Positions 8,397 through 58,064 of a DNA stretch of 64,000 nt are shown here, one piece after another (position 1 is the first letter of the stretch; the number at the start of each line of letters is the position of its first letter). Below the pieces are notes generated by a model, which did no database searches, was not told the origin of the DNA, and worked only from the letters and a program-made list of their open reading frames with translations. The DNA is from Candidatus Gastranaerophilales bacterium (GTDB lineage: Bacteria; Cyanobacteriota; Vampirovibrionia; Gastranaerophilales; Gastranaerophilaceae), in contig CALUYO010000004.1 in the NCBI GenBank assembly GCA_944325005.1, positions 124,001-188,000 of the forward strand. Direction: 5' to 3'. A program made the position numbers and the translations under genes.

Positions 8397-8465
8397 GAAA
8401 GGAGCAAGTATGAAAACATTTATAGCTACATTGTTTCGGGGGGGGGGCGCTTAAGCGCTTCTTTT
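8397..8465 (+). promoter_or_regulatory. G10 element, copy 1 (pilin 1 leader)
   Basis: SD GAAAGGAGC (8397-8405), ATG at 8410, then C, ten Gs (8438-8447) and C. The G10 frame encodes MKTFIATLFRGGGA and stops at TAA 8452. The pilin body lies in the -1 frame (or needs 11 or 8 Gs). GCTTCTTTT at 8457-8465 can pair with the SD over nine bases counting G-U pairs, which would bury the SD in a hairpin whose loop holds the ATG and the G run. The pairing is inferred. Confidence 0.7.
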
Positions 8466-12359: not shown

Positions 12360-12427
12360 GAAAGGAGCTGGTATGAAAACATTTATAGCTACATTGTTTC
12401 GGGGGGGGGGCGCTTAACCGCTTTTTC
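12360..12427 (+). promoter_or_regulatory. G10 element, copy 2 (pilin 2 leader)
   Basis: SD GAAAGGAGC (12360-12368), ATG at 12373, ten Gs at 12401-12410. The leader sequence from ATG to G run is identical to copy 1. The G10 frame stops at TAA 12415 after MKTFIATLFRGGGA. GCTTTTT (12420-12426) can pair with AAGGAGC only through two G-U pairs, the weakest SD pairing of the set. The -10 like TATAAT lies about 12 bases before the SD. Confidence 0.7.
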
Positions 12428-14986: not shown

Positions 14987-15059
14987 TTGAAAGGAGTAAT
15001 TATGAATACATATTTTAAATCTTCATGTCGGGGGGGGGGCGTAATTTAAGCTCTTTCAA
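14987..15059 (+). promoter_or_regulatory. G10 element, copy 3 (pilin 3 leader)
   Basis: SD TTGAAAGGAGT (14987-14997), ATG at 15002, ten Gs at 15030-15039. The G10 frame reads MNTYFKSSCRGGGVI and stops at TAA 15047. AGCTCTTTCAA (15049-15059) is complementary to the SD region: seven exact pairs (TTGAAAG / CTTTCAA), then a bulged G, then AGT / AGCT-side pairs. This is the longest SD pairing of the nine. TTATAAT lies upstream near 14976. Confidence 0.7.
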
Positions 15060-20131: not shown

Positions 20132-21514
20132 ATGGATGAAAAAGAGATTTGGATAAAAGCAAAAGAGGAGTTGGCAAATACAGTTCCGACATTCAAAATG
20201 TGGATTGAACCTTTGGAACCTGTCTCGTTTGACGGAAACGTCTTAACTTTAATAACTGCTCATGCACTTGCTCCGCAGGCTATTAAGTCGCAGCATGACG
20301 CGAAAATCCTTGAAGCTTTAAAAAATGCATACGGGCAGAATGTAAGCTATAACATTCTATATGATGAAGAATTTGCTGAGCGCTATCAAAAAGAAAAGAA
20401 AAAAGAACTGCAAAAACAAAAGAAAACCCTTGCAGATACTGATGAAAACAGGATTATGGATAATCTTGCACAGATGCAGTCATCTGCTAACTTGAATTTG
20501 AAATATAAATTTTCAAATTTTGTAGTCGGTGAAAACAGCCGTTTTGCGCACGCTGCAGCATTTGCTGTTGCTCAAAATCCTGCAAAAAAGTATAATCCTC
20601 TTTTTATATACGGTGCATCCGGGCTTGGTAAAACCCACCTTATGCAGGCAATCGGGCATTATATAATTTTTAATAAACCGAAATTGAAAGTAAAATATAT
20701 TAAAACTGAAGAATATGTAAATGAACTTATTAAAAATATTCAATGCGGAGGAAATGATAGAAACAGCCGTATGGATAAATTCCGCCAGAAGTACAGAAAT
20801 GTTGATGTGCTTTTGATTGATGATATTCAGTTTTTAGAGAGCAAAACTTATACAATGGAAGAAATTTTCCATACTTTTGACAGTCTGCATAACAAAAATA
20901 AGCAGATAGTGATAACATCTGATAGACTACCTAAAGATATCCCGACTCTTCCTGACAGGCTTAGAACCCGTTTTGAAATGGGGCTGATGGTTGATATTAC
21001 TCCGCCTGATTTTGAAACGCGAGTTGCAATTTTGAAAAATCTTGCAGAGCAGGCTAATGTTAAAGCTGAATTTGATGTTTTTGAATATATTGCAAAGAAC
21101 TTTGTGAATAATGTAAGAGAGCTTGAAGGAGCCTTTAATAAGGTAAGCGCTTATGCTGATATAGAAAAGACTGATTTAACTCTTGAATTTGCAAAAAAAG
21201 TTTTGAATTGTGAGAGTATGAAGCAGGAAATTACAATCGAAAAAGTTGCAAGGGCAGTAGGTGAATATTATGGCGTTTCGCTGAATGATTTTTTAAGCTC
21301 CGCAAGAAATCAGAGGGTTTCGTCCGCCCGCCATGTTGCTGTTTATATGGCACGTGAACTTACGCAAAAAAGTTTTGAAAGCATTGCAGAATTTTTTAAG
21401 AAAAAGCATACAACAATGCTTTATTCTTATGAAAAAATCAGAGATGATTTAAAGACAAATAAAAATCTTGATCAGGATATTTCGGTTATAAGGAGAACTT
21501 TGAGGGAAAATTAA
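20132..21514 (+). CDS. dnaA: Chromosomal replication initiator DnaA
   Basis: The 460-residue protein has all four DnaA domains. Domain I is WIKAKEELANTVPTFKMWIEPL and domain II a charged linker near 90-115. The AAA+ domain III has Walker A GASGLGKTHLMQ near 165 and Walker B VDVLLIDDIQFL. Domain IV carries the signature VSSARHVAVYMARELT and KKKHTTMLYSYEKI, which contacts DnaA boxes. The gene is not beside dnaN, and I found no cluster of TTATCCACA boxes next to it, so oriC is probably elsewhere. Its stop overlaps the ruvA ATG. Confidence 0.97.
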   Translation: MDEKEIWIKAKEELANTVPTFKMWIEPLEPVSFDGNVLTLITAHALAPQAIKSQHDAKILEALKNAYGQNVSYNILYDEEFAERYQKEKKKELQKQKKTLADTDENRIMDNLAQMQSSANLNLKYKFSNFVVGENSRFAHAAAFAVAQNPAKKYNPLFIYGASGLGKTHLMQAIGHYIIFNKPKLKVKYIKTEEYVNELIKNIQCGGNDRNSRMDKFRQKYRNVDVLLIDDIQFLESKTYTMEEIFHTFDSLHNKNKQIVITSDRLPKDIPTLPDRLRTRFEMGLMVDITPPDFETRVAILKNLAEQANVKAEFDVFEYIAKNFVNNVRELEGAFNKVSAYADIEKTDLTLEFAKKVLNCESMKQEITIEKVARAVGEYYGVSLNDFLSSARNQRVSSARHVAVYMARELTQKSFESIAEFFKKKHTTMLYSYEKIRDDLKTNKNLDQDISVIRRTLREN

Positions 21515-26697: not shown

Positions 26698-27446
26698 CTA
26701 CCACGGGTAATCATCCTTTATTTCCCAGCCATCGAGTTGTATTAGTGCTCCGCATGCATCGCTGCCATCGCCTTTACAATATTTTAATAGTGTTTCTCTA
26801 CTATTGCCGCTGCCATTCATATAAAAACCTTTAGAATTAAAGTTTGCAAAGAATGTATCTCTACCTACAATATTTGGCTTTTTTTCACCATTTGTATCAA
26901 TTCGTAGTGATATCGAATCTTCTTGTGTATAGTCAGCATTAAAATGCAGGTAAATTCCATTTGTCAGGGCTATACTGTAATGTGTATGTCCTCCGCCTGA
27001 TACAAGCTTGCCGTTCTCTCTGCGAAAATATTCATAAGGCATACCAGATGTTCTCATTTGTTCCTGCTTAACAACTTTAAGATATGGTGTAACATATGTA
27101 TCAACAAATGTTTTTGTTTCATCTGTATTTGTTTCGCCTGTATCTCCTTCAACCTCGTCTATCCAATCTTCCATAGGCCCGTTGTCGATTTCGGACATTT
27201 TTACAGCCTGGGAAACAACTGCGTAAGCATAGGCAAGTCTTGTTGCAGCTTCTTTTTTTTGATAATTTGCAGTCAATGACGGTATGGTCAGAGCTGCAAC
27301 AACACCTATAATTCCCAGTGTTATTAAAACCTCCGCCAGTGTATATGCATTAAAAAAATAAGTATATCTATTAATTCCTTGAAAATAAAAGATTACAGGC
27401 CTGTGTTTATCGGGGGGGGGGCAATTTGCAGCTTTTTCATAATCAT
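26698..27446 (-). CDS. Prepilin-type protein 4, minus strand, out of frame at C10
   Basis: From the ATG at 27446 (SD AAAGGAG nine bases upstream) the coding strand reads into a run of ten Cs (27421-27412) and then hits TAA after MIMKKLQIAPPPINTGL. One extra C, or a -1 shift, opens the frame through FNAYTLAEVLITLGIIG to the stop at 26698. The body has AYAVVSQAVKMSEIDNGP, DTNGEKKPNIVGRDTFF and CGALIQLDGWEI, so it is a divergent member of the same family. Cleavage would follow Ala. Unlike the others, its run encodes prolines and the Gs are on the template side. Confidence 0.8.
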
Positions 27447-27462
27447 ATTTTCAGTCTCCTTT
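27404..27462 (-). promoter_or_regulatory. G10 element, copy 4 (inverted relative to its gene)
   Basis: The ten Gs (27412-27421) are on the plus strand although the pilin gene is on the minus strand. In plus orientation the run is flanked as in copy 9: ATCG...GCAA and then CAGCTTTTTCATA, similar to AAGCTTCTCATA. So the block around the run looks inverted compared with the other eight. The SD (CTCCTTT complement, 27456-27462) belongs to the minus-strand gene. SD pairing with TCTTTT downstream is weak. Confidence 0.6.
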
Positions 27463-30395: not shown

Positions 30396-30461
30396 AAGGA
30401 GTTAGTTATGAAAAGTTTATTTGTTTCAAGTTTTCGGGGGGGGGGCGCTTAGTAGCTTCTT
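30396..30461 (+). promoter_or_regulatory. G10 element, copy 5 (pilin 5 leader)
   Basis: SD AAGGAGTT (30396-30403), ATG 30408, ten Gs at 30436-30445. The G10 frame reads MKSLFVSSFRGGGA and stops at TAG 30450. AGCTTCTT (30454-30461) can pair with AAGGAGTT over eight bases, two of them G-U. A TATAAT box at about 30380 lies a short distance upstream, giving a very short 5' UTR. Confidence 0.7.
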
Positions 30462-35302: not shown

Positions 35303-35364
35303 AGGAGCCAAAATGAACGAAAAGTTATATGAAAGCCGCGGGGGGGGGGCGTTTTAGAGCTCCT
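35303..35364 (+). promoter_or_regulatory. G10 element, copy 6 (mini-ORF upstream of pilin 6)
   Basis: SD AGGAGC (35303-35308), ATG 35313, ten Gs at 35340-35349. The G10 frame reads MNEKLYESRGGGAF and stops at TAG 35355. GCTCCT (35359-35364) is the exact complement of the SD. If the run is shifted by -1, the frame stays open to a TGA that overlaps the pilin 6 start as ATGA at 35452, which would couple translation. Here the element does not need to supply the pilin start. Confidence 0.7.
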
Positions 35365-35382
35365 GCAGCGCATTTTCAAGGG

Positions 35383-35410
35383 TTGCAAAATTCCAAAAAA
35401 CTGTTATAAT
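35383..35410 (+). promoter_or_regulatory. Promoter of pilin 6
   Basis: TTGCAA (35383-35388), 16 bases, then TATAAT (35405-35410). The same arrangement recurs before pilin 7. It lies downstream of the G10 mini-ORF and about 40 bases before the pilin ATG, so pilin 6 can be made without reading through the G run. Confidence 0.65.
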
Positions 35411-35451
35411 AGTGATATATATATATTCACATTAATGATGGAGATTTTGGA

Positions 35452-39202: not shown

Positions 39203-39264
39203 AGGAGCGATTATGAAAAAGATATTAAATAAAAAACTCGGGGGGGGGGCATTTTAGAGCTCCT
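39203..39264 (+). promoter_or_regulatory. G10 element, copy 7 (mini-ORF upstream of pilin 7)
   Basis: SD AGGAGC (39203-39208), ATG 39213, ten Gs at 39240-39249. The G10 frame reads MKKILNKKLGGGAF and stops at TAG 39255. GCTCCT (39259-39264) is the exact complement of the SD. With a -1 shift the frame runs without a stop into the pilin 7 coding frame, which would give a long N-terminal extension. Confidence 0.7.
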
Positions 39265-39282
39265 GTCTTTTTCTTTAAGATC

Positions 39283-39310
39283 TTGCAAAATCCCCAAAAG
39301 CTGTTATAAT
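39283..39310 (+). promoter_or_regulatory. Promoter of pilin 7
   Basis: TTGCAA (39283-39288), 16 bases, TATAAT (39305-39310), matching the pilin 6 promoter in sequence and spacing. It lies between the G10 mini-ORF and the pilin ATG. Confidence 0.65.
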
Positions 39311-39349
39311 ATTGATATGTATGTTCACATTAATAACGGAGTTTATAGA

Positions 39350-40378: not shown

Positions 40379-40444
40379 GAAAGGAGAAGTAGTAATGATT
40401 AAATTTTTAAGTTGCCGGGGGGGGGGCGCTTAGTAGCTTCTTTC
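40379..40444 (+). promoter_or_regulatory. G10 element, copy 8 (pilin 8 leader)
   Basis: SD GAAAGGAG (40379-40386), ATG 40395, ten Gs at 40417-40426. The G10 frame reads MIKFLSCRGGGA and stops at TAG 40431. CTTCTTTC (40437-40444) can pair with the whole SD over eight bases with one G-U. The distance from ATG to the run (22 bases) is the shortest of the plus-strand copies, yet the frame relation to the body is the same. Confidence 0.7.
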
Positions 40445-57997: not shown

Positions 57998-58064
57998 GAG
58001 GAGATAGATATGAAAAATTTATTTGGATTTATTAAATCGGGGGGGGGGCAAATCTAAGCTTCTC
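57998..58064 (+). promoter_or_regulatory. G10 element, copy 9 (pilin 9 leader)
   Basis: SD GAGGAG (57998-58003), ATG 58010, ten Gs at 58039-58048. The G10 frame reads MKNLFGFIKSGGGQI and stops at TAA 58055. CTTCTC (58059-58064) pairs with GAGGAG over six bases, one G-U. TTATAAT lies about 20 bases upstream. Confidence 0.7.

Follow-up and report, generated by a model that had tools for sequence, protein, structure and literature searches.

In Neisseria the pilus gene pilC is subject to poly-G phase variation, and the part of it that encodes the leader carries the G tract. In Neisseria gonorrhoeae the pilE G4, a G-rich and orientation-dependent element, is located by a pilin gene. Campylobacter possesses poly-G/C contingency loci in which a tract of about 10 Gs lies in the reading frame of many surface-structure genes and its length determines whether they are on or off (PMC6321876, PMC4965091). 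There, tract lengths peak at 9 (53%) and 10 (26%), the tract follows the coding strand and poly-C makes up only 5% of the ORF tracts (PMC6321876); the flanks of the G tract are without effect on slippage (PMC4965091). Experiments on GnT hotspots have shown that bacterial mutability beside G tracts is high only if the tract lies 5'-3' on the leading strand, and that flanking bases matter (PMC12344412). The published hotspots concern the substitution of a T beside short G tracts, not indels in a G10 (PMC12344412).

The pilin genes analyzed here share the main sequence-level features of poly-G contingency loci: a homopolymer at the start of the ORF (89 pilin leaders), a length that toggles between a full-length and a truncated frame, and variation of that length. 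New are the replication-locked strand, a conserved bipartite element and a near-universal off-by-one state. As in Campylobacter, a homopolymeric G tract is found in the reading frame and its length sets on or off by frame logic. Unlike the Campylobacter tracts, which follow the coding strand, the pilin runs follow the replication strand without exception, and 35% of them are poly-C (C on the coding strand in 31 of the 89 pilins). Moreover, 91% are exactly 10 long, against the two peaks at 9 and 10, the flank is conserved where it is irrelevant in Campylobacter, and almost every locus is exactly one base off. Neisseria pilC is likewise a pilus gene with a G tract where the leader is encoded, though in our case about 90 genes are involved instead of one or two; no replication-strand rule or conserved 3' block is known for pilC. 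The pilE G4 is likewise G-rich, orientation-dependent and next to a pilin gene, but our runs are present in about 90 copies, inside leaders, and are too short for an intramolecular quadruplex (by counting, two tetrads with 1-nt loops need at least 11 Gs). The GnT hotspots resemble our runs in having a leading-strand G tract; they differ in that a T is substituted beside a short tract in laboratory bacteria, whereas our runs are almost always followed by a C and are proposed to change by an indel (PMC12344412). Within the searches tried, no paper was found that describes these pilin-leader G10 runs.

The window is a 64-kb stretch (G000:C4:124001-188000) of the 2.0-Mb genome of Candidatus Gastranaerophilales bacterium (Melainabacteria), hereafter G000. 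The DnaA of this genome is 93% identical to the DnaA of MAG BRZ_KL__bin20. Nine G-runs are present in the window, all exactly 10 long, all C-G10-C and all on the + strand (Table 1). Eight are located in plus-strand leaders, nearly all belonging to pilin genes, and the ninth (27412-27421) in the leader of a minus-strand pilin, pilin 4. Matches to G8 are strongly enriched, with 27 observed against 0.28 expected by chance. The 15030 locus has a second ATG, at 15025, that is in frame by chance, and the pilin at 39240 also has its own start, MKKAFTLAEV.

Table 1. G10 runs of the window and features of the pilin 4 locus, in window coordinates.
Feature	Position	Strand	Remark
G10, pilin leader, sense	8438..8447	+	off-frame at 10; at 11 open, 170 aa
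G10, sense	12401..12410	+	off-frame at 10; at 11 open, 241 aa
G10, sense, N_methyl domain	15030..15039	+	RBS-linked ATG off-frame at 10; at 11 open, 261 aa
Pilin 4 frame, motif YTLAEVLITLGIIG (from about 27345) to stop (26698)	26698..27345	-	
Pilin 4 G10 element, TC-G10-CAATTTGCAGCTTTT	27410..27436	+	antisense to own gene
Pilin 4 G10 run (mRNA: C10)	27412..27421	+	run inside leader of minus-strand pilin
Pilin 4 leader start, up to run	27422..27446	-	ATG 27446-27444; run begins 25 nt past ATG
G10, sense	30436..30445	+	off-frame at 10; at 11 open, 249 aa
G10, sense leader, then sigma70-like promoter TTGCAAAA...TATAAT	35340..35349	+	frame at 11 is 47 aa only
G10, sense leader, then promoter-like TTGCAAAA...TATAAT	39240..39249	+	at 11 open, 266 aa
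G10, sense	40417..40426	+	off-frame at 10; at 11 open, 261 aa
G10, sense ("copy 9")	58039..58048	+	off-frame at 10; at 11 open, 252 aa

A preliminary description of this DNA had reported that pilin 4 reads Cs, coding Pro, while the Gs stay on the plus strand. This is correct: with a C on each side the run spans 27411-27422 of the plus strand (CG10C), and the message reads C10, coding APPP. An RBS-like AAAGGAG is found at about 27456-27462, and pilin 4 is open from its leader ATG (249 aa) only with a hypothetical 11-base run. The protein matches DUF6613 weakly, under the Pfam cut-off. On the + side the flank of its run, CAATTTGCAGCTTTTTC, is similar to the flanks of sense copies such as the one at 58039 (CAAATCTAAGCTTCTC).

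Genome-wide, 100 runs of at least 10 Gs were found in G000, of which 91 are exactly 10 long, seven 11, one 12 and one 14 (at a contig end); a single run has exactly 9 Gs. Pilin leaders hold 89 of the 100, near the ATG. At most loci an ATG with a ribosome-binding site is seen 21-32 nt ahead of the run. With a length of 10 the frame soon ends at a stop at most loci, giving a peptide of typically 12-20 aa, and with a length of 11 it opens into FTLAEVLITLGIIG (with Pfam N_methyl at several loci) and a pilin usually within 170-350 aa, mostly 220-300 aa. This one-base shortfall, which was absent from the preliminary description, applies to 76 of about 87 leader-bearing loci in G000 (48 sense, 28 antisense), where the frame is open only at 11 and the run is 10. 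Similar tendencies are observed among the pilin copies fetched from other species: only a length of 11 opens the frame in 12 of 14 G9 copies and 18 of 19 G10 copies, while 11 of 13 G11 copies are already in frame. Run length thereby varies among paralogues as well as species, with G9, G10, G11 and G12 copies. By frame logic, a gene would be on at eleven, and ten would be the common off state. A pilin need not always depend on such a switch: between run and pilin, about 18 loci in G000 have a further in-frame ATG and about a dozen have a promoter-like TTGCAA-TATAAT. At the former loci an off-frame run need not silence the gene.

Along the contigs of G000 the Gs stay on one strand, apart from a single change in each of C2 and C10. 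Four relatives with few contigs show switches of the G strand at replichore boundaries and nowhere else: exactly twice in each of the near-complete genomes G007 (75 runs) and G044 (48 runs), and once each among the listed runs of G043 and G019, within a contig spanning a boundary. Third-position GC skew in G007 flips sign inside both polarity-change intervals (C1 ~300-310 kb, C2 ~580-600 kb), and by this skew the Gs are on the G-rich strand, which is the leading strand. In three of three genomes the dnaA gene is distant from both polarity switches and surrounded by a stretch of constant polarity (window 20132-21514; G007:C3:173321; G044:C1:658336). It was rejected as origin marker, and GC skew was therefore used for replication orientation.

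Mapping of the 89 run-bearing pilins of G000 against replication shows that 58 of 58 co-directional genes carry G on the coding strand and 31 of 31 head-on genes carry C. The run thus follows replication, not transcription, and is locked to the leading strand whichever direction the gene points. Polarity as a by-product of gene orientation was rejected given that 31 head-on pilins hold their Gs on the leading strand. Pilin copies are non-independent (many are paralogues) and no formal P value is attached to these counts; the evidence consists of zero exceptions across several species. The earlier statement that the Gs keep to one DNA strand is therefore valid genome-wide, with the amendment that this is the leading strand of replication instead of the plus strand. 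The opposite pattern, minus-strand pilins mostly with Gs on the coding strand, had been named there as counter-evidence and was not found in any of the 31 head-on copies. Ordinary base skew was also rejected as cause of the polarity. C- and G-runs were compared in the stretches around every run in G000 (725 kb in total), where runs of length 4-5 show a mild G excess (94 G5 against 70 C5); the skew of G4/G5 is only 1.3-fold, compared to 100:0 for the long runs. An assembly artefact is unlikely, as the same rule is seen in many independent assemblies.

The runs belong to a short DNA element that is inserted into the leaders of pilin genes. On the G strand its consensus is 5'-(T/G)C-G10-C-R-n-Y-T-n-A-A-A-GCT-Y-3', with a spacer of 8-11 nt. 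Its GCT block follows the Gs on the 3' side at a distance of 8-11 nt in 110 of 121 sense elements and in 65 of 70 antisense ones (G000, G007, G044 and others), and a T is present at -5 in 95% and 91%, respectively. When aligned on the G strand, both classes alike have a C directly on both sides of the run, and conservation of the flank spans ~16 nt. The block lies between run and pilin in sense genes and between ATG and run in antisense genes. A constraint on protein or RNA does not easily explain why the message has the same word after the run in one class and before it in the other. All three codon phases are represented among the runs, as are both orientations.

The DNA-level, replication-strand-specific role suggested in the preliminary description gains support from the strand rule together with the same flank on the G strand in both orientations. 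For head-on pilins the shared G-strand flank also favors the view that the element is inverted relative to its gene. The proposal of an invertible segment did not hold up: site-specific invertible DNA has flanking inverted repeats, and none were detected at 27400-27450 beyond short AT-rich or 8-nt chance matches. A strand-specific structure likewise found no backing, as folding of 60-nt single strands was no better than that of shuffles. With neither inverted repeats nor a fold, an inversion or recombination site is not supported.

Pilins that are off-frame do not resemble pseudogenes, an option rejected by their open frames and dN/dS. In G000, 76 of the 79 pilins with a 10-base run continue for more than 120 aa after the motif. 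Cross-species pilin pairs show a dN/dS of 0.07-0.09 (0.094 for the pilin 4 pair), with the synonymous distance near saturation in three of the four pairs. Loss of mismatch repair was rejected as a cause too: MutS was found in 28 of the 29 genus members searched and also in most relatives. One genome of the same genus (G013, 92% complete) has neither a MutS match nor a G10 run, which may be due to chance or incompleteness.

Our main reading, with a probability of roughly 0.58, is that the runs form a length-dependent phase-variation switch of the pilins, operated by slippage, with the G strand fixed by replication. At the usual ten the leader start is one base off the pilin frame and the pilin would normally be off. 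Replication slippage that adds one G would turn the pilin on, and loss of that G would turn it off again. As cause of the polarity and of the fixed length we infer that leading-strand placement and the fixed 3' flank put all copies in the same replication context, which would give them the same equilibrium length and the same switching behavior. The likeliest reason for the strand rule would be a strand-asymmetric instability of leading-strand G tracts, for which the GnT hotspot experiments provide outside support (PMC12344412). The outcome would be a repertoire of about 90 pilins, few of which are made per cell at a time.

The leading rival is frameshifting at the level of expression, which we regard as rather unlikely. 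Here the DNA would stay G10 and either the ribosome (-1) or RNA polymerase (+1 base) would slip on the G10/C10 message, so that some full-length pilin is made from every locus. The great uniformity of G10 across species, the strong purifying selection on out-of-frame pilins and the fact that the same shift is needed at all loci are in line with this explanation. RNA signals, however, should keep one mRNA orientation, and the flank is 3' of the run in sense and 5' in antisense genes. A programmed ribosomal frameshift cassette has mRNA-sense signals at a fixed position and phase, whereas here every codon phase is used and the flank swaps sides. Furthermore, an RNA mechanism gives no reason to track the replication strand, and another cause would have to be sought for the strand rule.

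The 16-nt flank and the sharp peak at ten do not follow from slippage alone, seeing that Campylobacter tracts are indifferent to their flanks and differ in length, mostly 9 or 10. Since MutS is present, slippage may be slow, and the sharp peak would then be harder to obtain through slippage alone. It might be argued that the element is a switch dedicated to run length and coupled to replication. On the lagging-strand template the GCT block lies about one helical turn 3' of the run, and from there it would direct a fork event, such as the priming of an Okazaki fragment 8-11 nt away from the run or the binding of a protein at that site, by which the run is set at 10 and gains one G at a regulated rate. 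A small DNA element instead of passive slippage would in that case control about 90 pilins in either gene orientation, an idea we consider improbable.

It is equally improbable, in our estimate, that a G10 is purged from the leading-strand template for the damage it does to replication, the polarity being a by-product and the run an ordinary phase-variation tract. Such a hazard at the fork would agree with the complete absence of leading-strand C-runs of at least 8 from the 725 kb of G000 stretches oriented to the run. It leaves the conserved 3' flank in both gene orientations unexplained, though, and in Campylobacter poly-G tracks the coding strand (PMC6321876), so that either replication strand is presumably tolerated there.

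The distribution among relatives bears on a further explanation. The element is common in one genus, has fewer copies in several other genera of the family and is almost lacking elsewhere in the class. Pilins without the run mostly have plain short leaders such as MKKAFTLAE (in G000, in G022, G013 and G045, and in outgroups). As run-free genomes of the same genus and the outgroups have such leaders, the element is a derived insertion. This suits a mobile element copied, now or once, into single-stranded DNA at the fork, as in IS200/IS605 or oligonucleotide-like annealing, which would fix its orientation, with pilin leaders tolerating or benefiting from it; its occurrence in either gene orientation, and also in a few genes besides the pilins, fits as well. 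Insertion alone nevertheless does not give 89 of 100 copies in pilin leaders, nor a run one base short in all three phases, and we deem this origin of the pattern very doubtful. Finally, a KOPS/AIMS-type segregation or replication signal (FtsK-orienting or a similar G-rich polar sequence) that lies in pilin leaders by chance is hardly credible: the runs are G-rich, polar on the leading strand and, in G007, sparse near the origin-like switch and denser toward the terminus-like switch, yet they are not placed independently of gene family (89 of 100 copies in pilin leaders near the ATG, under a reading-frame rule), and the element is wholly or nearly missing from G022, despite its 133 pilin matches, and from other relatives.

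If the slippage switch is correct, a group of uncultured gut bacteria would have a reading-frame switch in about 90 members of one surface-protein family that is tied to the direction of DNA replication instead of transcription. With dozens of copies per genome, it constitutes a natural experiment on the part that replication strand and flanking sequence play in tract instability. We further predict that most pilins of these organisms are missed or truncated in genome annotation. For the function of the element, G022 offers a natural contrast: it belongs to the same genus, has almost no G10 runs and lacks the run in the pilins examined.

Several smaller observations can be added. Two duplicated pilin loci of G000 have near-identical leaders with a different run: C3:193123 has G11 and is in frame, C3:210054 has G10 and is out of frame. 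The length has changed after duplication, and both loci form a ready-made test pair. About a dozen sense leaders are in frame at 11 and are then followed by a conserved promoter-like TTGCAAAA-N-TATAAT, often with a second pilin start (e.g. MKKAFTLAEV); examples are window 35350-35420 and 39250-39320, and C1:257323, C8:69258, C13:37559 and C19:18604 of G000. Some of these starts would be nearly leaderless. About ten G10 runs are located outside pilin leaders, some of them in long ORFs (G000 C2:207, C2:7613, C2:17036, C4:199917, C5:42579, C7:75564 and C21:68); several have the GCT flank and all have the polarity of their contig. In another genus of the family (locus L320), G108 and G283 contain 59 and 16 C-G10-C copies. 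The only G108 leader that was read has a different 3' flank (CAAGCGCGTAGAGCGCG), so the flank may evolve independently of the run.
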